Shown here: piece by piece, positions 1,528-17,134 of the stretch
Numbering within the stretch: the stretch's first letter is position 1
Layout: the number at the start of each line of letters is the position of its first letter
Virus record (IMG/VR): IMGVR_UViG_3300029954_000021
Location: 1 to 47,083 of that record
From: a virus
Reading direction: 5' to 3' (one strand)
DNA length: 47,083 bases
Notes under the pieces: generated by a model
The model's database searches: none
Told to the model about the DNA's origin: nothing
Seen by the model: only the letters and a program-made list of their open reading frames with translations
Translations under genes and position numbers: made by a program

Positions 1528-3301
1528 GGGTAACGCAGCTTTAGCCTACGATGACGATGATCTGGACGACACGTGGGATGGGGAAGAACCCTGGACACCC
1601 GAAGTCTTACCCGAGGAAGAGCCCCTTGAAGTAACCGCGCTTCAAAAGGTTGCGCCCGTCTTACCCATGATGCGCCCGTCACAATTCACGGCGCGGGCGT
1701 TCGTCCTACCAAAGGATGATGGAATGGGGTCAGGTCCTTTCTCTTTCAAAGGGAGACGGCATCTTCCTCGCCTTTACGATACGCCCGCACGCCGCGTTCT
1801 TCTATGCTGCGCACGACAAGTTGAAAAGTCGACAGCGTTAGGTAACCGCGCGCTGTGTTACTCAGCGCTCGTTCCTTCCATCCGCATTCTATACGTGAGC
1901 CCCTCGGGGTCGCAGACCAAAAACTTCTCACGGGATCGTATTAAGGAGCCTATCGAGACCAGCGAGCTTTTGCGCCAATTCACGACGCGCATGCTGTCGC
2001 AAAACGTCTTCGATAAGCAGTTCATCAACCGGTCGATGATCACGATGCGCTACGCGTATCTGAATGCAGACCGCGCCCGCGGTATCCCCGCCTGGCAGCT
2101 TTACTTGGATGAGATCCAGGATATTTTGCGCAGTTGCATCCCTGTTCTTGAGCAGTGCACGTCCCACGCACCCGATCGATGGAAGAGCTTTGTGTACGCC
2201 GGTACACCGAAGAGCCTCGACAACGTAATCGAGGAATACCGGGCCAATAAAAGCACGCAGGGGGAGTGGGTTGTTCCTTGCGAAGGGTGTAACACGTGGA
2301 ACGTCCTCGGCGAGAAGAACATTGGTAAGAAGGGGCCCATTTGTAGCAAGTGCGGTAAGGCGATTGACCCGCAAGGAGAGCGCGCCCAGTGGGCCTGGAT
2401 GGTTACGCCGGATGAAGAGCGTATCCATGTTCCCTTTGAGAGCTACCGCATTTCGCAGTTGATGGTGCCTTGGAAGATTCGAAACTGGCACGAAGTTCTG
2501 CACGACTACGTTAACCATCCCCGCGCGCAGTTCATGAACGAATGCCTCGGCATTTCGTTTGAGTCGGGGACCCGGCCGCTAAATCAAGCGCAGCTTCGCG
2601 TGCAGTGCGGTACGCACTCCATGAGCGAGCTTGAATCCTTGCGGCATCGCTCCTTGGCGGAGCCTTTTTTCTTTGGCGTGGATTGGGGGTCTGGGGATAG
2701 CGCTTACACAGTTCTGACCATCGCGACGTACGTGAACGATCGCTTTCGGGTGATCTTCATGCACCGCTTCGTCGGCGAGGATGCGGACCCCGACGTTCAG
2801 GTTAAGAAGATTATCGAGATGGGGCATCACTTCAACGTGGCCACCATCGGTGCCGACCGTGGGTATGGCTTTGGTATGAACAGCCGCCTTGTACGCGCTT
2901 TTGGTAACAAACGCGTTCATCAATTTCAGCACTTGGGCAAGCTTACGAAGAAGGTGATCTTCGATCCCAAGTTGATGTACTGGAAGATGCACCGCACCGC
3001 GGTGATGAGCGATATCTTCGAGGCTATTAAAAAAGGCAAGGCGGAGTTTCCCCGATGGGATGAGTTCAAGAAGCCTTATGCCGAAGACTTCACGAGCATC
3101 TACAGTGAGTACAACGAACGCCTACGAATGATCCAATACGACCATAAGCGTGGGAGCCCTGACGATTCATTTCATTCGTTTATGTACGCGTGGCTTTCCT
3201 CTATGATCATGATCCCACGCCCGGACATCATTGCGCCGTCGCAGGAAAGCGAAGACGGTAAAGTGCTATCGCCTTACACGGGCCCCGTTTATCAGGGCTA
3301 A
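1526..3301 (+). CDS. terL: Terminase large subunit (packaging ATPase and nuclease)
   Basis: The motor protein that cuts concatemeric phage DNA and pumps it into the prohead through the portal. The 591-residue length is normal for the family. ATPase part: a variant Walker A, CCARQVEKST, at about 94-103, with Glu where classical P-loops have Gly, a variation I recall in other terminases; Walker B LYLDE at about 192-196 with the catalytic Glu; and a coupling motif YAGT at about 224-227. A Cys4 zinc ribbon (CEGC, then CSKC, about 252-276) is inserted between ATPase and nuclease. The RNase-H-like nuclease is marked by acidic residues in FGVDWGSG (D386), IGADRGYG (D444) and SPDDSFH (D546/D547). The ATG has a good site (TTGAGG) upstream. 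The stop overlaps the end of the next, minus-strand gene by four bases. Confidence 0.96.
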   Translation: MGNAALAYDDDDLDDTWDGEEPWTPEVLPEEEPLEVTALQKVAPVLPMMRPSQFTARAFVLPKDDGMGSGPFSFKGRRHLPRLYDTPARRVLLCCARQVEKSTALGNRALCYSALVPSIRILYVSPSGSQTKNFSRDRIKEPIETSELLRQFTTRMLSQNVFDKQFINRSMITMRYAYLNADRARGIPAWQLYLDEIQDILRSCIPVLEQCTSHAPDRWKSFVYAGTPKSLDNVIEEYRANKSTQGEWVVPCEGCNTWNVLGEKNIGKKGPICSKCGKAIDPQGERAQWAWMVTPDEERIHVPFESYRISQLMVPWKIRNWHEVLHDYVNHPRAQFMNECLGISFESGTRPLNQAQLRVQCGTHSMSELESLRHRSLAEPFFFGVDWGSGDSAYTVLTIATYVNDRFRVIFMHRFVGEDADPDVQVKKIIEMGHHFNVATIGADRGYGFGMNSRLVRAFGNKRVHQFQHLGKLTKKVIFDPKLMYWKMHRTAVMSDIFEAIKKGKAEFPRWDEFKKPYAEDFTSIYSEYNERLRMIQYDHKRGSPDDSFHSFMYAWLSSMIMIPRPDIIAPSQESEDGKVLSPYTGPVYQG

Positions 3302-4002
3302 TGCACATAGTGATTGAGTCGGCGTAAGACGTTGGTGTCGGTTTCAGGAAAGATTGTGGTAGCTGCGGTGCGCCCGCGCCGGCGGAGCACGTAGATGTAG
3401 GCTGCTTCGCGCAAAGAGCGTCGAGCGGCGGCAAGCTCCGCTTGTGCTTCTTTTAGCTCGAGATCCATGAACGGGACGCTGAAGCGCTGGTAGAGGCGCT
3501 CGGCCAATTCCAGGAGCTCTCGCCAGGGTTCGGGGTTGCCTGTGTACAGCTCCAGCAAATCGAAGAGCTCTTCATGAATGCCGAACAAGAGGGTGCACCA
3601 ATCCGCCACTTCCAGGACTTCTGTGGGTACGTCGGCGAGCGCATCATGAACGCGGCCCGCGAGGTCGAGGATGCTTTCTCGGTCGTACGGAAGCGTGGGC
3701 GCGTTCAATCCGTGAAGGCGTTCGAGTCGGATAAGCCGGCGCTCCAAGCGGTCTTCGCGAGCATGCTCTAATAAGCGCCGCGTCTCACTGGGCGCATTGA
3801 CCACCCCGGTTTGGCGCAGAGCCGCCAGCATCTGCACTTCATCTCTCTCCAGGTAGACCGTAACTTCGATCGGGTTGTTGCAGCGACGCAGCTCTCCTGT
3901 ACGCACGAATCGCCGCGCTTGCCGGTAACTTATATGAAGAATCTCTGCGGCTTGCGCGAGCGTTACCCAGTTTGGATTTCTTCCCATGCGTTCTTGGGAC
4001 AT
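3298..4002 (-). CDS. Excisionase/MerR-type HTH DNA-binding protein
   Basis: A 234-residue protein on the minus strand inside the structural cluster. Residues about 12-40 (VTLAQAAEILHISYRQARRF, then VRTGELRR) are a clear helix-turn-helix of the excisionase/MerR/HTH_17 type, which reads a DNA site and often a following wing. The rest is long and helical: Leu/Glu/Arg-rich stretches (RLERRLIRLERLHGL, ELFDLLELYTG, LKEAQAELAAARRSLREA) that look like dimer or coiled-coil segments. The start has a good site, AGAGGGTAC, just before the ATG. It converges tail-to-tail with TerL (four-base overlap) and diverges from the next plus gene. A transcription regulator is likely; its target is unknown. Confidence 0.8.
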   Translation of the reverse strand: MSQERMGRNPNWVTLAQAAEILHISYRQARRFVRTGELRRCNNPIEVTVYLERDEVQMLAALRQTGVVNAPSETRRLLEHAREDRLERRLIRLERLHGLNAPTLPYDRESILDLAGRVHDALADVPTEVLEVADWCTLLFGIHEELFDLLELYTGNPEPWRELLELAERLYQRFSVPFMDLELKEAQAELAAARRSLREAAYIYVLRRRGRTAATTIFPETDTNVLRRLNHYVH

Positions 4003-4021
4003 GTACCCTCTAGTAGCACCT

Positions 4022-4993
4022 ATGAGCCAGTACGATCTACCGCCGCAAACCCTGTTGCAACAATCCTCGGCGCGGCCTGTCAGCGGGGAAGAACTGGAGA
4101 CATACGGAAAGCATGCGGCCGATGCTTACGGGCGGGGAGATTACGAAACCCTCAGCGAGGCCATTGTGGACACGGTGAAGACCGCGGGTCTTTCTCCTGC
4201 GCAGGTTCAACGCGTGGTGGAGTTTACGAACACCGCGGCTTTTTTGACGGAGTTCAATAAGGAGGGCGCCGCAAGTAAGTACGTTGTATTCAACGGAGGG
4301 CCGGCGCGCTTCAACGAGGTTATTCAAGACTTGAACGATGGGGGTGGGGGCACGGTGTTCGATCGGGGAATACTCGATTACTCACACACCCCCGACGTGA
4401 AGACGGCGTCGCGGAAGCAACAGGCGTTGGAGAAGACGGCGGCGGCAGAAGCCGACGATGTCTTGGCGCGCGCTTTCCGTGTTGAATGCGCTGCGTCCCC
4501 TTTGCCTTACGCAAACCCCCTCGCGGATGTTCATGATCTTTGCGAGAAGCTGGCCGCGGCACGGGACGGGCACACCGCGCAAATAAATGAGCTCGAGCTT
4601 GATCTGAGCGCAGTGTCCGAAGAGATGTACCAGCACGTAAAACAGGCAGCCCTCGAGGGTGTTTCCCTTGGCTCGGTAGTGCAGGCGTGGGACTTGGCAT
4701 TGCAACCTGACCCAGTCCTGGTCAAGGCGGCCTTTGCGCTGATGGGACCTCGACTTCAAGCCGACGTGTTCGGTTCGTGGAATGCACTGGGTGCCTCCTT
4801 TGAGAAAACCGCAGCGGTGGGGGCAATGGTTAACGCGGAACACCCTATTGTGGTGGCCTTCGATGCCTACTGCGACCTCGTTACCAAGCTCGCGCACCTG
4901 CGCGCGGCGCAGGGCGACATGCTGGCGGGCATCGATCAGCTTCAGGCGTTCGAACGTTCCGTAGCGCGTAACTACAGTGAGGTGGTGGCGTGA
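4022..4993 (+). CDS. Virion/head structural protein candidate with KTAS/KTAA motifs
   Basis: About 323 residues from the ATG at 4022. In-frame ATGs at 4001 and 3986 are alternatives; none has a strong ribosome site, and 4001 would share a CATG with the divergent minus-strand gene. The protein is Ala-rich and helical. It carries VKTASRKQQ at bases 4400-4411, EKTAA at 4433-4444 and EKTAA at 4805-4816, plus a VKTAG near 4177. The same motif recurs in the protease and other head proteins downstream, which is why a virion or head role is inferred. It is coupled to the next gene by a GTGA overlap. No known domain was recognised; it does not look like a portal protein. Confidence 0.7.
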   Translation: MSQYDLPPQTLLQQSSARPVSGEELETYGKHAADAYGRGDYETLSEAIVDTVKTAGLSPAQVQRVVEFTNTAAFLTEFNKEGAASKYVVFNGGPARFNEVIQDLNDGGGGTVFDRGILDYSHTPDVKTASRKQQALEKTAAAEADDVLARAFRVECAASPLPYANPLADVHDLCEKLAAARDGHTAQINELELDLSAVSEEMYQHVKQAALEGVSLGSVVQAWDLALQPDPVLVKAAFALMGPRLQADVFGSWNALGASFEKTAAVGAMVNAEHPIVVAFDAYCDLVTKLAHLRAAQGDMLAGIDQLQAFERSVARNYSEVVA

Positions 4994-5496
4994 ACCCGTT
5001 GGATCTGTACTTGCTGAGCAAACACGCTGATGCGCCACAAGCAGGGGGTTGGGGGCCAACGCTGCGCAATGCTGCCATTCAAACCGGCGTGGGGTTGGCG
5101 GTAGCGGGTGCTCCCCTGGCCGCCAGTCATGTGTACAACGCGGTAACCAAGCGCCATCACTTCAACAAAATGATGGAGCACAACGAAGACTTGCAGGCGT
5201 ACCACGCGCAAGACCCGGCGCGCTTCAATCAGCTCTTCACGTCATTGCACGGCATGAACCCCGAGTTCGCCGCCGACCCTATTGTGGCGGGTTCTTACAT
5301 GCGCCAGATGGCCGCCCACCCCGCAGGCGCGGGCAAAGCCTTGGTTGAAGCACGCGGTGCAGCCAAAGCGTTGCCCACGCATCCTTTGTCTGACGTGATG
5401 AAGGGGATGGCGCCCACGATGGGTAAGGCCATTGCAGAGGGTACGGCGCCCAAGGCGCGGGCGGCACAAGTTCCTCCTGATGTAGCCACGGGCTGA
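4990..5496 (+). CDS. Putative virion structural protein, 168 aa
   Basis: GTG start overlapping the previous stop (GTGA), so translation is probably coupled. The N-terminus MNPLDLYLLSKHAD is followed by a small Gly/Ala hydrophobic segment (AIQTGVGLAVAGAPLAASHV, about residues 30-49). A charged, helical part follows, with the pattern ARFNQLFTSLHGMNPEFAADP and then VAGSYMRQMAAHPAGAG. I recall this block from other phage head-gene clusters, but it has no function attached. Its place between the KTAS protein and the maturation protease supports a head role. Confidence 0.65.
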   Translation: MNPLDLYLLSKHADAPQAGGWGPTLRNAAIQTGVGLAVAGAPLAASHVYNAVTKRHHFNKMMEHNEDLQAYHAQDPARFNQLFTSLHGMNPEFAADPIVAGSYMRQMAAHPAGAGKALVEARGAAKALPTHPLSDVMKGMAPTMGKAIAEGTAPKARAAQVPPDVATG

Positions 5497-5505
5497 GCAC
5501 GGCGC

Positions 5506-7098
5506 GTGATTAAAGTCAGTACCTTCCTTCATCAGAACGCGTTCGGCTACACCGCCATACCGCTTTTCGGTGCGGCGGATCGGGAGTTCGAAAAGAACGC
5601 CAGCGCGCACTTGTTGACGCCTGTGGCGCAGTACATTGCGTCTTTGCGCCCGATGAACAGCGCTCAATATGTTTTGGTGAACGCCCTAGGCGCGGGGGAG
5701 TACTTCGGTTCGAATATAAATGGCGATAACTTTCCCGAAGCAGGATTGATCCATTGTCCCGCGGGATGGACGGGTACGCCTGGCGTCGATCGCGCCTTAG
5801 CCGCGGATTGGCCTTACGGCTTTCCGACGTTCTACAACGCGTACCCCTTCGCGCATCACAAGAATAAGGACGCCAGCCGCGCGTATGGGGTTGTGGAGCT
5901 CGCCGCGTGGAACGACCACATGAAGCGGGTCGAATTGGTGGTGCGCGTCGATTACGACAAGTGCCTTCAGTACGGCGGTGTTCCTGTTTGGGACAAGCTG
6001 AAAGCAGGTCAGTACGCCGACGTCTCCATGGGAAGCCGCGTCCCTTTTGATACCAGTTCCATCACGTTGGATTGGAACGCGTACAACGACGCTAAGGCAA
6101 CGTACGACCCGAAGAAGCACCGTTCCCCCGGCCAAGCTGTCCTCGAGGTGCATAAGAAGACGCCCATTAAAGGGCTAAGCATCACGCGTGACGATTACGA
6201 CGAGTACTGCCTCAAGTACATGAACCGTATTCTGCCCGATGGGCGGAAGGTGTTCGTCTGGAATGACTACCCGCGGTTCTTCGACATCAGCTTCGTCTTT
6301 ATTGGTGCCGACCGTACCGCGAAGGTCATGGTGTACATCGCCCGGGAGGGGTCCTTTCCCGAAGCGATGCAAACCAAGACCGCCTCTGTCGCCGAAGGGT
6401 TCTCTGGGTTTCTTGAGAAGACGGCCAGCGTTAAGGGAGCGGGGCTTAAGCGGGCGGAAATCGATAAAGAGGTTACCCCCATTCCCGATGCGGCCAAGGC
6501 CATCCCTCTTCTGACGAAGAACGAACCGCCCCTTCCCCACGACTTGTTGAACGCCTTGTCTGCGGTACCCACAGCGAGCGCACTGAGTACAACCAGCGGC
6601 CTTGGGATGGTTCTGCGCCCTCAAGAATTTCAGCGCATGGTTCTTGTGCGTGCCGGCCAGGGTTCTCTGGCGGACAGCTTGGATAGGCAGAACAAGGTAT
6701 TTCCTTCTGGAGAACCTCCTTCATCGTGTGGTTTATCTCCGGAGTTGTTTCTTCCGGCGCTGGCGCGCTTACTTCTTCCCTTGTTCGATCAGCGCACCGC
6801 ACTCGCTCCCGCTGTTGAGCGCCGCGTTGTTATTCTTAGCTCAGGTTCTGCGGATCCCGTGAGCGCACCTACTTCCGATACCTCGGAGCTTCTTCGTAAG
6901 ATTGGTGCGGCCTACAATGGGTATCGTGAACAACTTCTGGAGATAGCCCCCTACAGCCAAAGCTTGATCCAGAAAGTAGCGACAGCTAGAAACCACGACC
7001 TAACAAAGCTTGCTGAGTGTTCCCCAGAAGATGTGTTTACCCCCCTATCATTCTGTTACTTACGCGACGCGTATTTGCATACTTGCCGCGCAGGATGA
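5506..7098 (+). CDS. Head maturation protease (assemblin-like) with long C-terminal tail
   Basis: A 530-residue protein with a GTG start. The N-terminal ~275 residues look like a serine protease of the herpesvirus assemblin/HK97 prohead fold: a conserved core around GAGEYFGSNINGDNFPE, a candidate catalytic His in YPFAHHKNKD (H117 or H118), a strand with MKRVELVVRVD, and a candidate nucleophile in DVSMGSR (S174). These proteases cut scaffold and capsid proteins during head maturation. Beyond the domain lie two copies of the KTAS motif (bases 6376-6387 and 6418-6429, the second in SGFLEKTASVKG), then about 220 residues ending in a Leu-rich helical region (LLPLFDQRTALAPAVERRVV). The tail may be a scaffold-like or self-cleaved part. 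Position two genes after TerL and upstream of the capsid gene fits this role. Confidence 0.75.
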   Translation: MIKVSTFLHQNAFGYTAIPLFGAADREFEKNASAHLLTPVAQYIASLRPMNSAQYVLVNALGAGEYFGSNINGDNFPEAGLIHCPAGWTGTPGVDRALAADWPYGFPTFYNAYPFAHHKNKDASRAYGVVELAAWNDHMKRVELVVRVDYDKCLQYGGVPVWDKLKAGQYADVSMGSRVPFDTSSITLDWNAYNDAKATYDPKKHRSPGQAVLEVHKKTPIKGLSITRDDYDEYCLKYMNRILPDGRKVFVWNDYPRFFDISFVFIGADRTAKVMVYIAREGSFPEAMQTKTASVAEGFSGFLEKTASVKGAGLKRAEIDKEVTPIPDAAKAIPLLTKNEPPLPHDLLNALSAVPTASALSTTSGLGMVLRPQEFQRMVLVRAGQGSLADSLDRQNKVFPSGEPPSSCGLSPELFLPALARLLLPLFDQRTALAPAVERRVVILSSGSADPVSAPTSDTSELLRKIGAAYNGYREQLLEIAPYSQSLIQKVATARNHDLTKLAECSPEDVFTPLSFCYLRDAYLHTCRAG

Positions 7099-7193
7099 TA
7101 CAACTTTCCTATTAGGCACACGCCAGCGTGGAGAGGGGTAGCGCCCTTCGAGGAACACGTGAACACGTCCCACTACTTCGGAGAAACGCATCC

Positions 7194-7958
7194 ATGATGA
7201 ACGCCACGCTCGCGGCCATGTACAATACGGCAGGGTACGGAGCGCAAACCCGTGAACAGGAGAAGGTTGCACACCTTGAGCTGTTCGCCAAAACGGCCGC
7301 GGCCAATGGGATTGACCTGACGGCGCTTTCTCAAGGTGATCGGGTCGCGCTCTACAACGAGTTCACCCAGAAGCTGGCTGAAGAGGGGGGCGAGTTCCCC
7401 CCGAAGGGTGAAGAGCACGAGGAAGAGTCCGAAGAGGAAGAGTCCGAAGAGGAAAAGAAGAAGCGCGAAGAGAAGGACAAGGAAGAGGGCTCCGAGGAAG
7501 AGAAGAAGGAAGCCCAGGCGCAGTTCGCAGCCATGCGTCAGTGGCAAGAGAAGAACGCCGAGGTCGATTTCCTTGGCCGCCGTATGGCGCACGCATTCGA
7601 AGACGAGCGCCGGCAGATTCAAGCTGCGAAGACGGCGTCGGCCAAGCCGGGAGCGGCGCAACCGGCAGTGCCGGCCGTTGCTCCCATGCCGAAGACGGCG
7701 TCGGTTAAGCAGCCCGCGACGCCGTTTGATACCCAGGCCGCGCGTCTTGCGGTGAAGCTGGCTTCCGACGCCAAGCTCAATACGAACTCGGTCATCGACA
7801 AGCTGAACGCGTTGCTGACCCTCGGGGTACCCCCGTTGGACAAGACGGCATCGGTCGCTTCAGCGAGTGATTACACCCACACCCTTAACGTGCGGGCCCT
7901 CGAGCTGTTGGAAGCGTCGGGGTACCCGGTCAACTGGAACGCGGTCTTCGGGCAGTAA
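7194..7958 (+). CDS. Acidic scaffold-like head protein with three KTAS motifs
   Basis: About 254 residues from ATG 7194 (ATG 7197 is equivalent), with GGAGA ten bases upstream. An upstream in-frame GTG at 7128 lacks such a site. Residues about 72-115 are an extreme Glu/Lys run written in a purine-only tract. A helical part follows (MRQWQEKNAEVDFLGRRMAH). Three KTAS motifs lie at bases 7629-7640, 7692-7703 and 7842-7853, with a KTAA at 7290. High charge, coiled-coil character and position between protease and capsid gene suggest a scaffolding or inner-core protein that could be a substrate of the protease. This is inference; no family was recognised. Confidence 0.7.
   Translation: MMNATLAAMYNTAGYGAQTREQEKVAHLELFAKTAAANGIDLTALSQGDRVALYNEFTQKLAEEGGEFPPKGEEHEEESEEEESEEEKKKREEKDKEEGSEEEKKEAQAQFAAMRQWQEKNAEVDFLGRRMAHAFEDERRQIQAAKTASAKPGAAQPAVPAVAPMPKTASVKQPATPFDTQAARLAVKLASDAKLNTNSVIDKLNALLTLGVPPLDKTASVASASDYTHTLNVRALELLEASGYPVNWNAVFGQ
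7419..7454 (+). repeat. Tandem 15-bp purine-rich repeat inside the acidic gene
   Basis: Two exact copies of a 15-base unit (GAGGAAGAGTCCGAA, 7419-7433 and 7434-7448) followed by a partial third copy. It encodes the EEES repeat and lies in a roughly 110-base stretch that is almost purely purine. A G6/C6 inverted repeat (about 7385-7402) lies just upstream. The repeat probably expanded by slippage. Confidence 0.8.
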
Positions 7959-7965
7959 ACACGCC

Positions 7966-10212
7966 ATGACACGGAGCAGAAACAAGTACGCGGACGCTTT
8001 GGGATCGGGAACACCGGATCCCAGTACCGCCCCGGCACGTTCTGCGTCTGTGCCTCAAATCGCTATCGCGAACACCCCGGCCCCTGGTCAACGGGGGCCT
8101 GTGGGTCTTGGCGGTCGCACATCGTATTCGCGTGTCAATACGGGAACCCCACCCATCCCCGACATGGGAACCAGTGCTCAGAAGAGCCAAGCTCCTCGGG
8201 GGATGGAGTTCCTACCCAAGACGGCAGCCCAGGAGAATTATCACATGACGACTACGGTCGCGGGACGACCCGCGCTGCAAGAGATTATCAAACAGGCCAT
8301 GGAAGGGGCGGCTGCTCGGGTTGACATCAGCCTGGAGTCGGCGCGCCAAATCGCTAATGCTGGGGGAACACCCCCCGCGGTTGAGAAAACCGCTTCGGCA
8401 CTTCCTTCCGTACGTTCCTTGCCAACGGATTTGACCACGAAGTTGGCCAGCGCCCTTGATTACGTCGCGGTTCAGATGGATCCCAAGCTGGCAGCCATCG
8501 ACATCGACGCCAAAACCACCGACGGCGTCGGCCCGGGGGAAGGACCCAATGCGCTTGATGTGACGCACGCGATTAGCAGCGACGCTCCCCTTCAGCCCAA
8601 TGCGTCGGGAAAGGCGATTGAACAACCGCCCAAAAACCCGGCACAGCAAAAGGATCCAACCCGTCCGGCCGACCCGGGTACGGGGCTCGAGACCAACGAC
8701 AGTACCGAGCACAGGGAGCAGCCGATCGAGCCCATCCCAAATCAAAAGACCACGCTCTCCAATGAGCAGGCCAAAGAGTCGTCGGCGTACGCCAACAACC
8801 TGCTTGCTCTTGGGCTGGCGCGTGTTGAGTACGACACCAAAGGCCAGCCGCAAATTGTTAAAGCAGCTGGAATCGGGGGCGCTATTACGGGTGCTCTTGG
8901 CGGCGGTGCTCTTGGCGCAGGGTTGGGTGCCTTGGCCGGGCATGCGCTGGGTATCGGCGCGGGGACCGGCGCGAAGTGGGGCGCTACCCTCGGTGCCGCC
9001 GGCGGTGCCCTTCATGGATCAGACGTGCTTCAAGGCGTGGGCGCTCCCCCTGCCGCCGAAGCGCAACCCAAGGTTGCCGCGGAGGAAACCACGCTTGAGC
9101 GCAAGGGGCGCAAAGGCGGTGCATTGGCCGGCACGATTGCAGGCAGTGTCGGTGGGGAACGCGCGGGGAGAGCTCTGGCCGAAGTGCTGGGCGCGGGTGC
9201 TCTTCGAAGTGGTCTTGCCCGTGCAGGCGGTTCTGTTCTCGGAGCGGGTATCGGTCATCACATCGGTGGGCGCCTTGGGCGCGCGGCCGGCGGCGCGGCG
9301 GAACATCGTCTCGACATGATCGACCCCAAGGGGAAGAAGGAAGCGTCGGCCGCGCTCAAGAACCTGGCGCTTCGCATGGCGAAGACCGCCTTGGATCCGG
9401 AAATGATGACTCCCGAACAGATCGATGCAGCGCAAGCCTACGGAGCGGCGCGCGCGCCACAAGTTCATGGCGCGTTGGTGGGCGGTGCTCTTGGGGCTCT
9501 CGGTGGGGGTGCCGCGGGATATTACTTTACACCTCTCAACTTTGCCGGGAAGATGATGGGTGGCACCTTGGGCGCGATTCACGGTGGTTTGGCAGGAGCG
9601 GATATCGGCTCAGCCGTTGACGCGGCGCGGATGACTCCTGAACAGCACGCGCAGATGACCTTGAACGCGGAAGATGCCGCGCAGGCTAACAAGCAAGCGT
9701 CAGTGTACGCCCGCAATCTTCTGGCCCTCGGGCTGAAGAAGCAGGCGGAAGATGCCATCAACCCGGCGCAGATCAGCGCGGGTAAGATCGACGACATCGG
9801 CGTCAATTCTCCTGACGGTGCCACCCCGGCGGGCGTTGGTGTTCCTTCGGAACCGAGCGACGTCAATTCACAGAAGCGGCTCATCGAGTCGAACCTGGCC
9901 GCCATCGGGTACACCCGGCGGGAAGCCAAGAGCGATCCGAAGAAAGACCTAGGCGCGGTGCTCAATGAGCCGGCCCTGTCCGCGGAACATGATCGTACGC
10001 TGAACGAAGCGTTCGATCACACGGAGGAAGCGGGCGCCAAGATTGGTAGCGCTCAGACGTTGAAGATTGCTGCCGCGCGCGCGGTTTTGAACAAGCTCGC
10101 GCAGCAACAGGTGGTCGGCAAGAAGACCAAGAAGAGCATGATGGGAGGCGCTGGTGGCGCACCCAATACCCCTCAAGCCGCCAGCGGATTTACCGCCGGC
10201 GCGCAGATGTAA
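7966..10212 (+). CDS. Large glycine-zipper virion protein with KTAS motifs
   Basis: About 748 residues from ATG 7966, eight bases after the previous stop. The frame is open further upstream, but that part only shadows the previous gene. The N-terminal 260 residues are Pro/Ala-rich and carry PKTAA (bases 8218-8229) and EKTAS (8386-8397). Three Gly/Ala zipper blocks follow, at about residues 302-350, 384-445 and 500-548 (for example GALGGGALGAGLGALAG). A short element, YA-x-NLLALGL, appears twice (about 275-284 and 581-590), each time near a zipper block. Glycine zippers can pack helices closely or enter membranes, so this could be an inner-core protein, perhaps ejected with the DNA. No enzyme motif was seen. 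Confidence 0.7.
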   Translation: MTRSRNKYADALGSGTPDPSTAPARSASVPQIAIANTPAPGQRGPVGLGGRTSYSRVNTGTPPIPDMGTSAQKSQAPRGMEFLPKTAAQENYHMTTTVAGRPALQEIIKQAMEGAAARVDISLESARQIANAGGTPPAVEKTASALPSVRSLPTDLTTKLASALDYVAVQMDPKLAAIDIDAKTTDGVGPGEGPNALDVTHAISSDAPLQPNASGKAIEQPPKNPAQQKDPTRPADPGTGLETNDSTEHREQPIEPIPNQKTTLSNEQAKESSAYANNLLALGLARVEYDTKGQPQIVKAAGIGGAITGALGGGALGAGLGALAGHALGIGAGTGAKWGATLGAAGGALHGSDVLQGVGAPPAAEAQPKVAAEETTLERKGRKGGALAGTIAGSVGGERAGRALAEVLGAGALRSGLARAGGSVLGAGIGHHIGGRLGRAAGGAAEHRLDMIDPKGKKEASAALKNLALRMAKTALDPEMMTPEQIDAAQAYGAARAPQVHGALVGGALGALGGGAAGYYFTPLNFAGKMMGGTLGAIHGGLAGADIGSAVDAARMTPEQHAQMTLNAEDAAQANKQASVYARNLLALGLKKQAEDAINPAQISAGKIDDIGVNSPDGATPAGVGVPSEPSDVNSQKRLIESNLAAIGYTRREAKSDPKKDLGAVLNEPALSAEHDRTLNEAFDHTEEAGAKIGSAQTLKIAAARAVLNKLAQQQVVGKKTKKSMMGGAGGAPNTPQAASGFTAGAQM

Positions 10213-10223
10213 AAGGAGCGGCC

Positions 10224-10616
10224 ATGGCAACCCAAAAGATGGATCAAGTCAAAGTCGCTCGCGTCATTAAGGATGCGGCGGTCGCCTTGCGTACCGTGTC
10301 GCAAGAACGGGACGCATTGCAAACCGAGAACGCCAAGTTGGCTCAGGCCAACCGGGTGTTGACGACGCGCATGCAGGCCGAGAAGGTAGCGATGGACATG
10401 CACGACAAGGGTGTGCACACCGCTATGCCTTTCGCGGACCTGGTCGACACGCTCGAGAAGCGTGCGCATCAAGACCCGAAGGGCTTTGAGGTTCTCAAAG
10501 AAGCCGTCAACCTTACGGGTCCGGACATGATGAAGACCGCGTCGGTGGGCACTACAGCCGCTGCCCATCTCGGTGCTTCGGATTTCGAACAGTACATCCT
10601 CGGAGACATCGGCTGA
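10224..10616 (+). CDS. Coiled-coil head protein with C-terminal KTAS motif
   Basis: 130 residues, ATG preceded by AAAAGGAGCGGCC, a strong ribosome site. Residues about 20-55 form a likely coiled coil (RDALQTENAKLAQANRVL). MMKTASVGTTAA lies near the C-terminus (motif at bases 10533-10544), leaving a short tail DFEQYILGDIG. If the motif is a cleavage site, the coiled coil would be separated from this 20-odd residue tail. A small scaffold-like or core protein is plausible from its position just before the capsid genes. Confidence 0.7.
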   Translation: MATQKMDQVKVARVIKDAAVALRTVSQERDALQTENAKLAQANRVLTTRMQAEKVAMDMHDKGVHTAMPFADLVDTLEKRAHQDPKGFEVLKEAVNLTGPDMMKTASVGTTAAAHLGASDFEQYILGDIG

Positions 10617-10656
10617 CCGCGGCGCTTCTTCAACAGACTGCACTAGGAGAATTTCA

Positions 10657-11199
10657 GTGACCACACTTCGCGAAAACTTCAAGCCGGTTTCCGACGTTAT
10701 GCCCATTGTTCGAAGGGACTGGATCCTTGCGGACAAGACCCTGGCCAACCCGTCCAACCCGCTGTCGCTCATCGATGGCGAGTGGATGACGCTGAATGGC
10801 GTCGGCCAAATGATCCGCGCGGTTGACATCACGCAGACGTTGGGGACGTCGGCGCTCAATGTGCTGTCGTGGCCCTTGTGGGCGGAGAACGGCCGTTATG
10901 ATGTGCAGGCTATAGCCGACTGCAAGATGCCCCTTCTATGGCTCAACGCCTGGGAGTTCGAGACGCGCATCTACGATCCGGCCGAGGTCTCGGGGGCAAA
11001 CGGCGCGCCCATCGCCGCCATGCTGCAACCCCTCAAGGTGGCCAGCATTTCGGTGGGTGGCGTGTACGGGGTACGGACCCTGAGCGGCCTCGTGGGCCAT
11101 GGCGGTTCGAACGACACCGACCGCATCGTTGGGTACGTCACCAAGTTGCCCGCTGCCAACAACGGTTGGCTGCGTCTTCGCGGAGGCAACCTCTTCTAA
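10657..11199 (+). CDS. Putative head decoration or capsid-associated protein
   Basis: 180 residues from GTG 10657, with AGGAGAATTTCA immediately upstream; an earlier in-frame ATG at 10573 would overlap the previous gene and has no good site. The sequence is beta-rich (LSLIDGEWMTLNGVGQ, VASISVGGVYGVRTLSGL) without a KTAS motif. Position directly before the major capsid gene is typical of decoration or head-stabilising proteins. This assignment rests on position and composition only. Confidence 0.6.
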   Translation: MTTLRENFKPVSDVMPIVRRDWILADKTLANPSNPLSLIDGEWMTLNGVGQMIRAVDITQTLGTSALNVLSWPLWAENGRYDVQAIADCKMPLLWLNAWEFETRIYDPAEVSGANGAPIAAMLQPLKVASISVGGVYGVRTLSGLVGHGGSNDTDRIVGYVTKLPAANNGWLRLRGGNLF

Positions 11200-11242
11200 G
11201 CCGTGTGGTGAACAACGGCCTACTTAACTAAAGGAGAATCAG

Positions 11243-12364
11243 ATGGCATCGGCACGGCAAGTCAACGATCTGTTCAACACACGCCTCGGCGAACCCGGGG
11301 GCAAAGAAAAGCTCGCCCAGTTTGGCGGCTCTTACATTCGCGATCGTCTTCGCGAGGTTTCGTTCGTTCGCAAGATCGTGCCCCCGGAGCAGGTTACGCG
11401 TACGGACTGCCAGCGTTCAACGCGGCATGACACGCTGGTCAAGATCGTCGACATCGAGCCCAAGAGCCGGGCCATGGCGATCAGCTTCCGGGGACAGCCC
11501 ACGGCCCGGTTTATCCGGGGTGAGCGCGCCGAGGTAGCTTTCTTCACGATCAGCTCGGAGGTCTTTCAGAAGACCGAACAAGAGCTACTAGCGTATGAGA
11601 TGCCCATCACCAAGATCATCGAGGAGAATTCGGTGAAGGACATCCAGGAGATCGAGGATCGCGAGTTCGTCATCCATATCGAAGCCGCGGTTCAGGCGCT
11701 TCAGCAGGAAGCCAACGGTGGAACGATCGTGTCGTTGAACGCTTCAGCTCTTCAAGGCAGTGCGCCTCCGGTCGAGTTCTCGGTTCGTAAGGGGGAGCTT
11801 GCGCGCGCCGCCAATACGAACGACGCGGTAATCCGCCCGGTTCAGCGCAAGGACATCGTGGAGGGCTTCAAGATCATCGACGGAAGACGCCTGCGGTGCG
11901 CACGCTTCCTTCTGACCGAAACTGACTTCGACGATGTCCTGTCCTGGACCGTGGAAGACACCGGCGATCGGATTCAGTCGGAGACCACCGTCGACGGGTA
12001 CAAGTACAATTTGCTCGTGGGCCGCCCGTACATCCGGACTGTGAAGACCGACATCCTGCGCCGTGGGAACATCTACTTCTTCGCGGAACCCGAGTTCTTC
12101 GGGAAGTTCTACGTGCTTAACCAGACCAAGTTCTACATCGACAAGGTCGCCAACACGATCACCTTCCAGGCATGGGAGGACATCGCGATGGCGGTCATCA
12201 ACATCGCCAGCGTTGGCAAGATCGAGCTCTACTCGGCGGACGCTACGGCCAACGATGAGGACACGCTGCTCGACAACTTCATTCCGGTGGCTGAGGATAG
12301 CCTTGGCGCCATCAACAACCGCGTGAACGAAGGGCTCAAATTCCCCCAGATCGTCGCCAATTAA
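11243..12364 (+). CDS. Major capsid protein
   Basis: 373 residues, ATG with a strong AAAGGAGAATCAG site, followed by the strongest terminator in the window, consistent with high expression. The order terminase, protease, scaffold-like, decoration candidate, then this gene matches head clusters. The C-terminal part has the alternating strand-helix pattern I associate with HK97-fold capsid proteins (FFGKFYVLNQTKFYIDKVAN, ITFQAWEDIAMAVINIASVG), and the long helix near residues 105-160 fits the spine helix. There is no obvious KTAS motif and no clear N-terminal delta domain. Confidence 0.85.
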   Translation: MASARQVNDLFNTRLGEPGGKEKLAQFGGSYIRDRLREVSFVRKIVPPEQVTRTDCQRSTRHDTLVKIVDIEPKSRAMAISFRGQPTARFIRGERAEVAFFTISSEVFQKTEQELLAYEMPITKIIEENSVKDIQEIEDREFVIHIEAAVQALQQEANGGTIVSLNASALQGSAPPVEFSVRKGELARAANTNDAVIRPVQRKDIVEGFKIIDGRRLRCARFLLTETDFDDVLSWTVEDTGDRIQSETTVDGYKYNLLVGRPYIRTVKTDILRRGNIYFFAEPEFFGKFYVLNQTKFYIDKVANTITFQAWEDIAMAVINIASVGKIELYSADATANDEDTLLDNFIPVAEDSLGAINNRVNEGLKFPQIVAN

Positions 12365-12399
12365 CCTGAGGGAACTCGCGTAGTTCTGTCGGCCCGGAT

Positions 12400-12437
12400 T
12401 AAGAGGGCACCGGCGCCGGTCGTCGGTGTCCTCTTTT
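12400..12437 (+). terminator. Rho-independent terminator after the capsid gene
   Basis: AAGAGGGCACCG (12401-12412) pairs with CGGTGTCCTCTT (12424-12435) over 12 bp with one G-T pair. The 11-base loop is followed by a short T run. It sits 36 bases after the capsid stop and probably separates head from neck gene expression. Confidence 0.85.
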
Positions 12438-12460
12438 GCGTTTCAAGGTAGGCTACGATC

Positions 12461-12955
12461 ATGCCGCAAGATGTGTTTTTCATTTTCAATACCACCCGGT
12501 CGATTCACACCGGCTCTGTGCGCCGGGCACTGCTGGGTCCTGAGAGCAGCACCAAAAACCTTTTCTTGGCGGGGGGTCTGGTCCGTGTTGTTCGGGGCCG
12601 CCCCTCTCCGGTAACCGGCGACTTTCTTCGAAAGCACATTCATGAAGTGCAAGACAAGGAGCGCAAGGGACTGGTGCGCGTGTACAACGCCCGAAGCCAA
12701 CGGGTGGATCTGACAACCCTCGCGGCGGTTACCGAAGACGCTCTGCGAGAAGACGCAACCCTCGAGGACGTTGTGCCTCCTGAGGTACCTGAAGTACCCA
12801 CGGAAGAAGGGCTTACTTCTACCCAGGAAGTCGCCGTGGATACGGCGGAGCTTTCGGTCGAGGAAATTTTTGAAGAAGGCACGACGGAAACTACACCCGT
12901 TGCGTCAGAAGAAGTGCACACGAGCGCGGGCAGTCGACGGCGTCGACGAGGGTAA
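12461..12955 (+). CDS. Hypothetical neck/head protein with acidic C-terminus
   Basis: 164 residues, the first gene after the capsid terminator. The N-terminal ~75 residues (QDVFFIFNTTRSIHTG, VRRALLGPESSTKNLFLAGG) look folded. The C-terminal half is acidic and low in complexity (VVPPEVPEVPTEEG and Glu-rich stretches) and ends in a basic RRRRRG tail. It resembles small head-completion proteins in size and position, but no family was recognised. An upstream AAGGTAGG could be the ribosome site. Confidence 0.6.
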   Translation: MPQDVFFIFNTTRSIHTGSVRRALLGPESSTKNLFLAGGLVRVVRGRPSPVTGDFLRKHIHEVQDKERKGLVRVYNARSQRVDLTTLAAVTEDALREDATLEDVVPPEVPEVPTEEGLTSTQEVAVDTAELSVEEIFEEGTTETTPVASEEVHTSAGSRRRRRG

Positions 12956-12960
12956 GCGCT

Positions 12961-13476
12961 ATGGCCAACGGTGAAAAGCTGCAGGGCGTTCAGGCGATGA
13001 GCCAAACGATGCAGGCGTTTGTTCAGACTGTGCGGCTTTTTACGCGGGATCACCCTCAGCTCAATCGTTTACTGACCGGGGAAGAGTCCACGGATCGCAT
13101 CATTGCGTGGGCAGTGATGGACGCCCTTTCGGATTTCAATGGGACGCCCCCTTTTTTGGGAGCGTTCAGCCTTGAAGATTTGCTTCAATGGCATCAACAG
13201 GCGCTGCTCACACGCATGACCACGTGTTCGCTGCTTGAGTCCGTAGGGCTCCTTCAAACGCGAAACCACATCAATTATTCAAACGGCGGCATCAACGTAG
13301 GCGTGAACGATAAAACGCCGCTCATCATGAACTGGCTCCAGTACTTCAAAGGGACGACGGAGCAGATGAAGCAGCGGGTTAAGGTCTCGCTGAACATCGG
13401 GCAGATTATCGGCCCCATGAACACCGGTTTGCATTCAGAACTCTGGAGTGTGAACGCTTCGTACCTCAGTTACTAG
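12961..13476 (+). CDS. Putative neck/connector protein, 171 aa
   Basis: ATG four bases after the previous stop (TAAGCGCT between), so clearly in the same transcript. The protein is helical, with a conserved-looking end: INVGVNDKTPLIMNWLQYF, then VKVSLNIGQIIGPM. No enzymatic motif. Position between the capsid gene and the sheath suggests a head-tail connector or completion role; which one cannot be told from the sequence. Confidence 0.6.
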   Translation: MANGEKLQGVQAMSQTMQAFVQTVRLFTRDHPQLNRLLTGEESTDRIIAWAVMDALSDFNGTPPFLGAFSLEDLLQWHQQALLTRMTTCSLLESVGLLQTRNHINYSNGGINVGVNDKTPLIMNWLQYFKGTTEQMKQRVKVSLNIGQIIGPMNTGLHSELWSVNASYLSY

Positions 13477-13507
13477 TGGTAGAGTTTGCATTACCTAAGG
13501 AGCACCC

Positions 13508-13963
13508 GTGTCTCTTCATACCTATGAGTTCGACAACCTAAAGGACATGGAGTTCTTCCTTCAGGGAGGGGTTTCGGGCGGTAAAGAGGTTGTTACCCAA
13601 AACGGGCGCATCTACGGGTTGAACGGTTCGACCCTGATCTTTACGTTGCCCGCAGGCACGGTACAGTTCTCTGATGTTTTGGAGCAGGGGCTGACGTTCC
13701 AGCAGATTTCTCAGCAGATCGCTGCTGTACTCCCGGCGCTCGCCACCTTTTGGCGCGACAAGTACATTCACATCCTGCAGAAAGCATTGGGGGGTGGGAT
13801 TTCCCTGAGTAAGAGTGGAACCGCGAATCCTTTCTTCGGGTTCAGCTCCGCAACGGACGCGATCGGTACCTTGTTCAACGGTCCTTCGGGGGCTACGCCG
13901 CGCTACATCGACAGTAGTGGTAAAGCACGGCTCGAGGGCTACTACGTGGTAGTGGAGTTCTAA
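13508..13963 (+). CDS. Putative neck/tail-connector protein, 151 aa
   Basis: GTG start with AAGGAGCACCC upstream, a strong site. Beta-rich in the first 55 residues (GGKEVVTQNGRIYGLNGST), then a helix (QQISQQIAAVLPALATFW) and a Gly/Ser-rich part with a final strand LEGYYVVVEF. No family recognised. The stop is directly followed by the ATG of the next gene. Confidence 0.6.
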   Translation: MSLHTYEFDNLKDMEFFLQGGVSGGKEVVTQNGRIYGLNGSTLIFTLPAGTVQFSDVLEQGLTFQQISQQIAAVLPALATFWRDKYIHILQKALGGGISLSKSGTANPFFGFSSATDAIGTLFNGPSGATPRYIDSSGKARLEGYYVVVEF

Positions 13964-16243
13964 ATGACGAACAGTTTTGAGCGAGCGCTTTTCGGCGAAG
14001 ACGCGCAGATCCCCCTCCACATGGCAAGTGCTTACTTCGTGTCCATGAAGCAGCCCCTTCAGGTCAAGGTGGCGCGCGTTTCGACGAAGACCGCAGGGTG
14101 GCAAGACGCGCCGGATGAGACCGGGCTTCTCGAAGGGCAATTTGAAGTACCCCTCGAGTTCGCGGTGCAGCTTATGGGTACGTGCGCCATGCACTTGCTA
14201 CGGCTGATGACCGCAGGGCTCATCTACTCGAAAAGCATTCGAGGCCCCTACGCCGGTGAAGTTCTACGCGTCATTTGTGACACGGAGTGGGATCACAAGA
14301 ACGCCTTTCAGTATTTGGTGGAGCGCATGGCGGTCTTGGCCGGTGCACCGCACATCCCAGAATCGGAGATGCCCCCGTCGAGTACCGATCCTCTCGCGGT
14401 AGCGCAACGTATGATCCGCGCTGAACAAGAAATGATTCAGAGCTATCACGAGTTGTGCGCAGTCCTCGGGCACAACCCGATGAAGTTCAAGATCAAGTCG
14501 TACATGGGCGAATGCCAGGCCCACTTGGATAAGTATTGGCGGGCACTGCCACCCGAGTATGGGAACAAGCCTATGATTCCTACGCCGCCCGTGATGCTCG
14601 AGCGGCACGAGGAAAATGAGACCCCCGAACAAGAGGCCATCGAAAGCCCCGAGTTTCAACAGGCGGAAGAAGCCGCGGGCGTCGAACAACCTGGTGAAGA
14701 CGAAGGGGCCGAGGATCAAGAGCTCCCTGAAGGTGGGGAGGACACGCCGCAAGAAGCGTCGGAGGCGCCTTCGGAAGAAGCTGTAGAGGAACCCGCACCG
14801 CCAGACCAAAAGACAGCCAGTGGTTTTTCCAAGGTCGCTGCCTTGATGGCGAAGTGGGCCAAGGAGAACGCAACCGATGCAGAGCTCAAAGAGACCGGGC
14901 GGCAGCGGGCGGTGACCACCATTTCTGCGGAGCACCACCGGGAGTCCGCGCGCCGCGGGGAGCGGGCAGGGCGAACCCTCGGTATGTTAGGGGGTGCAGC
15001 GGCCGGGGGCGTGCTTGGGCATGCGCTCGGTAAAGGCCATCCGATGGCGACGCTAGGGGGCGCCGCTCTGGGTGGCGCCGCGGGCCATCGGGTGGGGGGT
15101 GAGCTCGGAACCGAGGCGGACATTGCGCGGCACAAGAAGGCGAACATCGCCAAGTTGGCTATGCGCATGGTGCGTTCTTTAACGAAGACCGCTGATGAGC
15201 TTCAGGGCATCCCCGATGCGGAAGCCCCCATGGCTTCCCCGACCGATGATCCGGAGCTGACCCCGGTCAATTACCTGCAAGCCGAGCAAGTGGGGCAACA
15301 GTTTCAGGATCGAAACGAGGCCAACTTCTACCGTTCGAAGCTGCACGCGACCGAGCAGCAGGTGGCGCAAGCGCAGCAAGAAGCGCAAATGCAGGTGCAG
15401 CAGATGCAGCAGGCGGCGGCTCAAGCTCAGGCTGATGCCGCCTCGGCAGCGCCGCGCATCAAGTCCGCGCTTGATGAAGCGGTCAACGCCAAGAACGACG
15501 CGCTCAAGCAAATGGAGACCGCGTCGCGCATGCGGATCGCGCAGCAGAACCTACGCATGCAATTGATGGAGTTGGCATCCCAAGATCCCGATGCCCAAGC
15601 CGCCATGGATTTGGCGCAAAGTACGGGGCAGGGAACGCCCATGGGCACACCGCTCGGAACGGTGCCCCCGGCCGCTCCCGATGCTGGCTTAAATGCGGGC
15701 CCACCGCAGCCTCCGGCTCAAGGGGATTCGGGTGGGGGCCCCCCGGGGGGGCCCGCCGGCGCGGCCCCTGATGCGCAAACCGCCCCTGGCGCGGCGCCGC
15801 CCGCGGGGTCGCCTGACATGAATGCCACTGCGGGCGGCCCGCCGGGGCCTGACCCGTCCATGGCCCAAAGCCTGACGCAGGTGGGAAAGACGGCGTCGGT
15901 GCTTCGTCGCGGGTTGCAGAAGCACGCAGCGCTCGGCGGCGCTTTGCTGGGCGGCTTGGTGGGCGGTGCGGACCAAGCCTACCGAACCCATCAGGGAATT
16001 CAGGGGGGCCTTGACCCGGTGCAAAGCCGCATTGACGCCCTGATGGGAAGCCAAGACGGCAGCTATGGCAGCGCCGCCGCCTTGGCCATGGCTAAGACCC
16101 AGTTGGCTCAGCGGGAGCTGGCCTTGGCGCATCCGACCCAGGCCATGCTGCGCAATACAGGGAAGGGCGCTGTGCAAGGGGCGCTGCTCGGCAGCGGTAT
16201 CGAGGACAAGGGCCGCCAACTTCAACGACTGCTGACGCAGTAG
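13964..16243 (+). CDS. Virion protein with ferritin-like N-terminal domain, glycine zipper and KTAS motifs
   Basis: 759 residues. Residues about 60-196 look like a four-helix ferritin/bacterioferritin-like bundle: EFAVQLM (E65), TEWDHKNAF (E108-x-x-H111), RAEQEMIQSYHEL (E154) and GECQAHLDKYW (E183, H187). In the last helix the Glu-His spacing is three residues rather than the usual two, so the metal site may be altered. An acidic linker follows (about 215-280), then QKTASGFSKVAAL (motif at bases 14810-14821), a glycine-zipper block (about 339-381), TKTAD near 15187, a Gln/Ala-rich coiled coil (about 460-540), a Pro/Gly-rich stretch, GKTASVLRRG (15887-15898), and a second small zipper. It is likely a virion component; the role of the ferritin fold is unknown. 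Confidence 0.7.
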   Translation: MTNSFERALFGEDAQIPLHMASAYFVSMKQPLQVKVARVSTKTAGWQDAPDETGLLEGQFEVPLEFAVQLMGTCAMHLLRLMTAGLIYSKSIRGPYAGEVLRVICDTEWDHKNAFQYLVERMAVLAGAPHIPESEMPPSSTDPLAVAQRMIRAEQEMIQSYHELCAVLGHNPMKFKIKSYMGECQAHLDKYWRALPPEYGNKPMIPTPPVMLERHEENETPEQEAIESPEFQQAEEAAGVEQPGEDEGAEDQELPEGGEDTPQEASEAPSEEAVEEPAPPDQKTASGFSKVAALMAKWAKENATDAELKETGRQRAVTTISAEHHRESARRGERAGRTLGMLGGAAAGGVLGHALGKGHPMATLGGAALGGAAGHRVGGELGTEADIARHKKANIAKLAMRMVRSLTKTADELQGIPDAEAPMASPTDDPELTPVNYLQAEQVGQQFQDRNEANFYRSKLHATEQQVAQAQQEAQMQVQQMQQAAAQAQADAASAAPRIKSALDEAVNAKNDALKQMETASRMRIAQQNLRMQLMELASQDPDAQAAMDLAQSTGQGTPMGTPLGTVPPAAPDAGLNAGPPQPPAQGDSGGGPPGGPAGAAPDAQTAPGAAPPAGSPDMNATAGGPPGPDPSMAQSLTQVGKTASVLRRGLQKHAALGGALLGGLVGGADQAYRTHQGIQGGLDPVQSRIDALMGSQDGSYGSAAALAMAKTQLAQRELALAHPTQAMLRNTGKGAVQGALLGSGIEDKGRQLQRLLTQ

Positions 16244-16252
16244 GAGACCATC

Positions 16253-17134
16253 ATGCTGGATGCATTTCTGAACGTGTTGGTGAAGAAAGCTTCGGACAAG
16301 AAAACCGAAGATGAGTTGACGGCGCATCTGACGCGCTTGCCTCTGAACGAGATTCAAAAGATTGCGCGGCTGGGCTCGGTTAAGAAGGCATTCTGCGGCG
16401 ACGGTGACGATGGGAAGTGGCTCGCGCGCTACGAAGACACGGCGCTGTATGAGAAAGCGTTGGCGCTTGAGGAAGAGCTGCTCAAGATCGAAGCGCAGCG
16501 CATTGAGCGTCGGTTGAAGCCGGAACCCGAGATCGACAACCTCTATGCCCAAGAGGACATGGTTCGGTTGAAGAAGCGGCAACTGGACCTCGAGTTGTCC
16601 AAGCTGCGCGCGGGGGGCGAGGCGGAGCCGGCGGCAAACGATCTGGAAGAAGAAAACGATCTGGAAGAAGAGGAAGAGCCGGCAGCGGAAGACGGAAGCA
16701 TGAAGTCCGCGCATTTGGCCTTCGTGCGTAAGCTGGCGGCGTGCTCGGATCCCACCCAGGGGCTGAAGGCGCCCGCGGTAAAGCGACCCCCGGTTCCTTC
16801 GATGGCCGTGAAGACAGCGAGTGTCCTGCGCCCCTTTCTTCCGGCCTTCCCAGGACTGCCCAAGGAAGCGTGCTTCGATCTGGCGGGGCGAGCGTTGGCG
16901 CACGCAGAGGCACAGCAAGCATCTTTGCGCGCCAAGCATGCGGGCATCGGCGGCGCTATCAAGGGCGCGCTGCGCGAAGGGGCCATTCAAGGGGGTACGG
17001 GTGCAGCCGGGGGCGCCCTTGGAGGCGCATTGTTTGGTGGTGTTGGGGCTTTACCCGGGGCTGCCATCGGAGGCGCCGGCGGCGCTATCAACGGTATTAT
17101 TTCAGGCGCAGCCAAAGGTTTTAACGACAAGTAG
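16253..17134 (+). CDS. Virion protein with helical N-terminus, KTAS motif and C-terminal glycine zipper
   Basis: 293 residues, ATG with TAGGAGACCATC upstream. The N-terminal half is helical and charged, including WLARYEDTALYEKALALEEE, and an acidic Glu run at about 125-147. VKTASVLRPF lies at bases 16811-16822. The C-terminal ~65 residues are a glycine-zipper (GIGGAIKGALREGAIQGG, then GAAGGALGGALFGGVGA), similar in style to the 7966 and 13964 proteins. This suggests the three share a location, such as the capsid interior or an injected complex. Confidence 0.7.
   Translation: MLDAFLNVLVKKASDKKTEDELTAHLTRLPLNEIQKIARLGSVKKAFCGDGDDGKWLARYEDTALYEKALALEEELLKIEAQRIERRLKPEPEIDNLYAQEDMVRLKKRQLDLELSKLRAGGEAEPAANDLEEENDLEEEEEPAAEDGSMKSAHLAFVRKLAACSDPTQGLKAPAVKRPPVPSMAVKTASVLRPFLPAFPGLPKEACFDLAGRALAHAEAQQASLRAKHAGIGGAIKGALREGAIQGGTGAAGGALGGALFGGVGALPGAAIGGAGGAINGIISGAAKGFNDK

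Follow-up and report, generated by a model that had tools for sequence, protein, structure and literature searches.

A lysine-alanine motif recurring in the head proteins of a group of large phages is a likely recognition site of the head maturation protease

Results

Head gene cluster and distribution of KTAS

The window analyzed here is a stretch of 47,083 nucleotides of viral DNA (IMG/VR record IMGVR_UViG_3300029954_000021), which contains a large terminase gene (1526-3301), a head gene cluster and tail genes. In the protease and capsid genes, which were tested, the window is identical to part of a 167-kb contig (G001), on which window position 4400 corresponds to position 122501. More than 240 related capsid loci are present in the collection. 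The named relatives of the capsid protein are only Salmonella phage Arash, three Vibrio phages and one unannotated record; the protease additionally has a link to Bacillus phage G (tblastn matches in Arash, D69 and phage G gp19). The gene listed by the open reading frame tool from 7867 has its true start near 8203 (MEFLPKTAA...). Gene starts in the fetched loci may be off because a simple codon-usage caller was used. The features of the window are as follows.

3986-4993, + strand: head-cluster protein, 335 amino acids, mostly helical, with nine K-x-A including KTAS at 4400, KTAA at 4433 and 4805, and KTAG at 4178
4400-4411, + strand: KTAS in a disordered segment of the 3986 protein (AlphaFold model)
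4433-4444, + strand: KTAA in a disordered segment of the 3986 protein (AlphaFold model)
4805-4816, + strand: KTAA directly after a helix of the 3986 protein (AlphaFold model)
5506-7098, + strand: head maturation protease, 530 amino acids, with N-tail, catalytic domain, linker and C-terminal domain
5587-5604, + strand: FEKNAS (K30), near-invariant N-terminal site before the catalytic domain (protease alignment)
6376-6387, + strand: KTAS in the disordered linker behind the catalytic domain (predicted structure)
6418-6429, + strand: LEKTASV, conserved linker site (K305), with K and A 94% conserved
7128-7958, + strand: Lys/Glu-rich scaffold-like protein with nine K-x-A, including KTAA at 7290 and KTAS at 7629, 7692 and 7842
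8203-10212, + strand: glycine-zipper-rich head protein with KTAA at 8218, KTAS at 8386, KTAL at 9382 and about 10 other K-x-A
10224-10616, + strand: small helical protein directly upstream of the capsid gene, with seven K-x-A including KTAS at 10533
11243-12364, + strand: major capsid protein (PHROG 2522), without KTA and with K-x-A near chance
13964-16243, + strand: multidomain head protein with a glycine zipper, KTAG at 14087, KTAS at 14810 and 15887, and KTAD at 15185
16253-17134, + strand: glycine-zipper head protein with KTAS at 16811 and weaker sites
18075-18101, + strand: FADELVKIA, N-terminal leader of the small 18051-18455 protein, matching F-x-D-E-L-x-K-I-A

A deoxynucleoside monophosphate kinase is encoded at 28817-29953, in the small-gene block (PHROG 139, E value of 2e-33).

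A sequence-only reading of the window had described KTAS and KTAA as recurring in seven genes of the head cluster. Recounting revealed KTAS at exactly the 11 positions given (4400, 6376, 6418, 7629, 7692, 7842, 8386, 10533, 14810, 15887 and 16811) and KTAA at the 4 positions given (4433, 4805, 7290 and 8218), and all 15 sites lie in frame on the + strand in the genes starting at 3986, 5506, 7128, 8203, 10224, 13964 and 16253. The motif had not been noticed in the sheath, tape measure or small-gene block, and every other called gene of the window indeed contains zero KTA. Among the weaker forms named, KTAG (4178 and 14087) and KTAD (15185) are present, whereas HTAS is absent from the seven genes, in which the nearest form is HTAQ at 4571; KTAL at 9382 is a further weak form.

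Six-frame translation of the window yielded no KTAS beyond these 11, and the minus strand has none. Shuffling within proteins gave a mean of 0.23 KTAS and a maximum of 3 (5,000 trials), compared to 11 observed, and the remaining 23 permutations of K, T, A and S together account for two occurrences. The 15 KTA[SA] sites are encoded by 12 different codon strings, and the signal is therefore one at the protein level and not a repeated DNA sequence; in the seven genes, 19 of 20 DNA matches lie in the coding frame. The true unit is wider than KTAS and consists of a hydrophobic residue, any residue, K, any residue, A and a small residue. In the AlphaFold model of the 3986 protein (pLDDT of 81), about half of the K-x-A sites lie inside predicted helices, whereas the four KTA sites are located in disordered segments or directly behind helices. 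Not every K-x-A match need be cut, because about half of the sites of this protein are within predicted helices, and some K-x-A may be structural.

Shape, enrichment and conservation of the motif

KTA, which was not selected beforehand, is the most over-represented tripeptide of the 167-kb genome (39 occurrences compared to 12.6 expected). The concentration in head genes holds for this full genome, in which nine head proteins contain 71 matches and the rest contains 27, compared to 24.6 in shuffles. Enrichment was determined in dereplicated families from about 70 to 75 related loci or genomes, with expectations from within-protein shuffles. K-x-A was enriched 3.7-fold in the 3986 family, 2.1-fold in the protease, 2.2-fold in the 7128 family, 2.0-fold in the 8203 family, 4.5-fold in the 10224 family (the highest value in the cluster), 1.35-fold in the 13964 family and 1.5-fold in the 16253 family; two more head-type families outside the window showed 4.6- and 2.1-fold enrichment. 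KTA exceeded expectation about 5- to 24-fold in nine head families. In the capsid, sheath and most neck and tail families, K-x-A was near 1 and KTA near or below chance, with deviations from 1 in a few small families of low expectation. R-x-A was enriched in no family, and KA and KxxA showed no enrichment comparable to that of K-x-A.

Alignment of the sites gave the consensus [ED][ED][LMF][EVT]K[TVLI]A[SA][AV], which spans -2 to +4 around Lys (0). With the flanks fixed, Lys was found 9.6-fold over background and Arg 0.39-fold; Ala at +2 was five-fold over background, and Ser and Gly at that position were about at background. Conservation thus falls on Lys (0) and Ala (+2), and Glu is no more than favored at -1. 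KTAS represents the strong variant of a broader motif, about [LMF]-[E]-K-[TVLI]-A-[SA]-[AV], which requires Lys and does not tolerate Arg. The number of copies per protein reaches 14 to 17.

At the K-x-A sites of the window, Lys and Ala usually exceed both other lysines and the average alignment column in conservation. In the 3986 family, conservation was 0.84 for Lys and 0.82 for Ala, compared to 0.56 and 0.45 for other lysines and the average column. The conservation is clearest in the 3986 and protease families and weak in the 13964 and 16253 families.

Motif sites flank the catalytic domain of the head protease

PHROG 18299, annotated as head maturation protease, was matched by 5 of 18 relatives of the 5506-7098 product (best E value of 2.7e-11). 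The window protease by itself matched nothing in PHROG, Pfam and PDB sequence searches. Its best fold match was T4 gp21, which was weak (Foldseek E value of 0.07, low-confidence model), and direct profile comparison with T4 gp21 detected no kinship. His117/118 and Ser174 are conserved. The assignment to the protease family rests on the PHROG matches of the five relatives, the weak gp21 fold match and the conserved His and Ser.

The window protease carries one motif site in its N-tail, none in the catalytic domain (about residues 45 to 268) and two to four in the linker. The same layout was found in 35 proteases: the N-tails contain 34 sites, about one each; the linkers contain 66 compared to 3.8 in shuffles; and the catalytic domains contain 0 in 7,767 residues. 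K30 is 98 to 100% conserved and A32 about 94% conserved (36 to 48 proteases). The N-tail and the linker are low-confidence stretches of the predicted structure and presumably flexible. In two relatives, the linker carries an additional domain: in L070, this domain is bounded by KVAS and KEAS, and in L077, an InPase domain lies between EKVA and a weaker EKIS, and LKVAF follows just downstream as a further site. Cleavage is favored over a pure tag because the sites flank the catalytic domain and never lie inside it, and the T4 control described below agrees.

In many relatives, the head protease is interrupted by inteins with LAGLIDADG homing endonuclease domains (L044:3064-5916, L047:3798-6611, L070:2946-6239, L094:4058-6922, L095:3888-6740, L104:3650-6544, L038:3359-6166, L021:4711-7701 and L022:10001-12709). 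Several are inserted directly behind a conserved V-S-M-G motif that contains the probable catalytic serine, and others near an N-I-N-G-D motif or further downstream. Splicing would have to precede head maturation.

Distant relatives and control phages

The families of the window served to train a position profile, and only the results for Arash, D69, phage G, T4 and P1 are therefore independent of the training. The whole genome of Arash, whose head proteins are less than 30% identical to their window counterparts, gave 74 profile matches compared to 30 in shuffles. The top-ranked proteins adjoin the capsid gene: gp220 with 10 sites, gp223 with 7 and the protease gp222 with 5; a further structural protein, gp242, is also among the top-ranked. 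The syntenic counterpart of the 3986 protein is gp220, which is indicated by synteny and motif profile despite a blank tblastn result: neither the 3986 protein nor the product of G001 94258 had a tblastn match in the named phages. Nor did the 3986 model yield a convincing relative in a fold search.

Vibrio phage D69 and the head region of phage G showed the same profile behavior as Arash, and the phage G protease carries ILEKVAS and LLKIAS behind its catalytic domain. The motif is thus retained in close and distant relatives. In the unrelated phage T4, the profile gave no excess (4 matches compared to 5.4 in shuffles), and in the unrelated phage P1, it gave a mild one (16 compared to 10.2). 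A D69 protein encoded beside the capsid gene has a long stretch of perfect E-A-E-V repeats (L135:18780-19442).

The proven T4 cleavage motif, [LI]xE, was analyzed as a control. It was enriched 2.8-fold in the scaffold gp22, 2.75-fold in the protease gp21, 2.5-fold in gp68 and 2.0-fold in gp23, whereas the average for baseplate, neck and sheath proteins was close to 1, with variation among single proteins (gp13, 2.1-fold). Since a proven motif has the same enrichment pattern, this result counts for cleavage at K-x-A. In T4, the scaffold is cleaved at multiple sites of the L/I-X-E motif (PMC9026906).

The major capsid protein shows no clean site

The N-terminal part of the window capsid protein has, around residue 23, a single conserved KEK[LI]A, in which the upstream hydrophobic residue at -2 is missing. 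The capsid proteins of Arash and D69 have GL[VT]KEAG at the same place. The phage G capsid chain in PDB entry 6wkk begins at Met1, with no sign of processing. In T4, HK97 and P1, the capsid protein is cleaved. The capsid protein as main substrate is unsupported here, as it is without a clean site.

An N-terminal leader on candidate cargo proteins

Unrelated proteins of these phages start with A-F-x-D-E-L-x-K-I-A, among them the 18051-18455 product, an InPase protein and several proteins of unknown function. The leader occurs 7 times in the first 40 residues and 3 times in 5.4 times more interior sequence, which makes it 13-fold denser at the N-terminus. It resembles a capsid-targeting sequence and, by analogy, may direct proteins to the head. 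A leader at the N-terminus that ends in the motif gives separate support to the tag idea. In T4, capsid-targeting sequences are leaders removed at the cleavage motif (PMC9026906), and InPase domains are components of polyvalent proteins, for which packaging is predicted (PMC5512222).

In two members of the 13964 family (L077:12946-15729 and L096:13853-16600), a ferritin-like domain lies near the N-terminus, between the first and the later K-x-A sites (Pfam E values of 5e-15 and 2e-9). Pfam did not recognize this domain in the window copy at 13964-16243.

Several other proteins carry motif sites or leader-like stretches. L146:2498-4333 (611 amino acids), from another phage, combines an InPase with a glycosyltransferase-like domain, recognized by eye, and carries RKLAS, RKLAA, HKIAE, VKFAE and VKTAA at its start, between its parts and near its end. 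L145:2153-3970 is an InPase protein with an F-A-E-L-R-K-V-A leader and an extra domain that is NlpC/P60- or YiiX-like by eye. G001 69210-70004 (L108:9210-10004) appears by eye to be acetyltransferase-like and InPase-like, and its leader-like A-F-Y-D-E-L-I-Q-I is at the C-terminus, not at the N-terminus. A sigma-70 region 3 protein with the motif-bearing N-terminus MNPIDAYLQEREKVAAD is encoded at G002 9446-10210 (L124, minus strand) and is possibly a packaged sigma factor.

Discussion

The motif is specific for Lys, restricted to head proteins, conserved, and positioned outside the catalytic domain of the protease. The sequence-only reading had proposed a cleavage site for the head protease or a tag for the capsid interior; the full genome and the relatives both favor this predicted role. 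The motif is likely to be the site that is recognized by the head maturation protease encoded at 5506-7098 and by its relatives. We infer that cleavage takes place there, within the prohead and through this protease. Taken as a whole, the evidence argues strongly, if not conclusively, for cleavage.

The recognition site would be about [LMF]-x-K-[TVLI]-A-[SA], with KTAS and KTAA as its strongest forms. As the prohead matures, the enzyme would shorten itself at the N-tail and the C-terminal linker, make many cuts in scaffold and core proteins, and split packaged cargo proteins into their domains. Part of the cargo would enter via the N-terminal F-x-D-E-L-x-K-I-A leader, which ends in a site.

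With regard to the scissile bond, a cut between Ala and Ser, with Lys at P3, Ala at P1 and a small P1' residue, is slightly preferred to a cut after Lys, with a hydrophobic residue at P3 and Lys at P1. The sites of T4, SPN3US and phiKZ have the common form P3-x-P1 followed by a small residue. The bond after Ala is favored because Ser or Ala at +3 resembles the Ser at P1' in SPN3US (PMC10052503) and in phage P1, whose capsid protein is cut after Glu, between MLE and SVAAEM (PMC9024508). Lys is the least replaceable residue, which argues for the cut after Lys.

The motif could instead be a docking or retention peptide, an amphipathic helix that binds the inner shell, portal or scaffold and stays uncut. 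Many sites are predicted to lie within helices, the flanks have a helix-like spacing of hydrophobic and acidic residues, and F-x-D-E-L-x-K-I-A heads unrelated proteins with 13-fold density in their first 40 residues, all of which would suit docking. Such a peptide would not readily account for sites that flank the catalytic domain of the protease and are absent from its interior, for KTA sites in disordered segments or at helix ends of the 3986 protein, or for selection of small residues as far as +3/+4, and up to 14 to 17 copies per protein exceed the need. We therefore consider docking without cleavage unlikely, though it is the strongest of the alternatives.

An origin in composition is less probable still. 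The head proteins are rich in Ala, Lys and Glu and helical, so that helical or disordered proteins of this kind might yield K-x-A by chance or by helix packing; but the within-protein shuffles already control for composition, KA, KxxA and R-x-A lack comparable enrichment, only 1 of the 24 orders of K, T, A and S is frequent, and the profile excess is absent in T4 and mild in P1. These shuffles and controls largely refute a pure composition effect. A DNA-level repeat (AAGACGGCGTCG-like) for recombination, packaging or regulation might be suspected from the one exact codon string shared by 4 of the 15 KTA[SA] sites. It is refuted for practical purposes by the codon diversity and the coding frame, next to the lack of minus-strand KTAS and the retention of the motif as protein across genomes with less than 30% protein identity.

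Processing by the head protease has parallels in known systems. As with T4 gp21, the motif is short with a two-residue spacing, has many sites in scaffold or core proteins and sites near both ends of the protease, and shows the same statistical signature, with N-terminal leaders on packaged proteins (predicted here). Unlike in T4, the key residues are Lys and Ala and not Leu/Ile and Glu, the protease has no detectable sequence kinship with gp21, and a capsid site is not evident; that T4-type head proteases cut after Glu, whereas the motif here is centered on Lys and Ala, is a point against cleavage, as are the weak kinship of the protease to gp21, the lack of a clean capsid site and the sites of the 3986 protein within predicted helices. 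The A-X-E motif of SPN3US gp245 and the S-X-E motif of phiKZ gp175 are likewise of the P3-x-P1 type (PMC5694885, PMC10052503). Both proteases lose their C-termini by self-cleavage (PMC5694885, PMC9026906), and many sites lie in propeptides and ejected proteins (PMC5694885, PMC10052503). Unlike in these phages, where Glu is at P1, no Glu-centered motif was found here.

The head proteases HK97 gp4 and T5 pb11 cut after lysine and thus provide a precedent for lysine-directed head proteolysis. Their lysine sites lie mainly in the scaffold domain of the capsid protein itself, whereas the motif described here is distributed over several distinct head proteins and almost lacking in the capsid protein. 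Searching the literature for KTAS in phage capsids gave one match, which was false.

The predicted leader is comparable to the N-terminal signal that directs the P1 cargo proteins Pro, DarA and DarB to the head (PMC9024508, PMC12810830, PMC5512222), and, as in P1-type cargo and polyvalent proteins, InPase-type domains are predicted to be packaged (PMC5512222). Unlike in P1, where no shared leader was found among the Dar proteins, the leader is recognizable here. It is possible, if somewhat short of probable, that the head of these phages is a cargo-processing compartment, which multidomain proteins (with ferritin-like, InPase and other domains, sometimes within the protease) enter by a common leader, and in which cuts at K-x-A by a protease of undescribed specificity free the modules, so that separate effectors and not one polyvalent chain are ejected.

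The motif is family-wide and is well explained, in what we regard as a strong though not conclusive case, by head-protease processing at an unfamiliar lysine-containing site. If this is true, it provides a sequence rule for the proteins that reach the head and undergo processing there in a large and nearly uncultured group of phages with genomes of 150 to 195 kb, which extends to Salmonella, Vibrio and Bacillus phages. The specificity of head proteases would then be wider than Glu-centered sites, and motif and leader together would predict from genomes the packaged and ejected proteins whose recognition usually needs proteomics.
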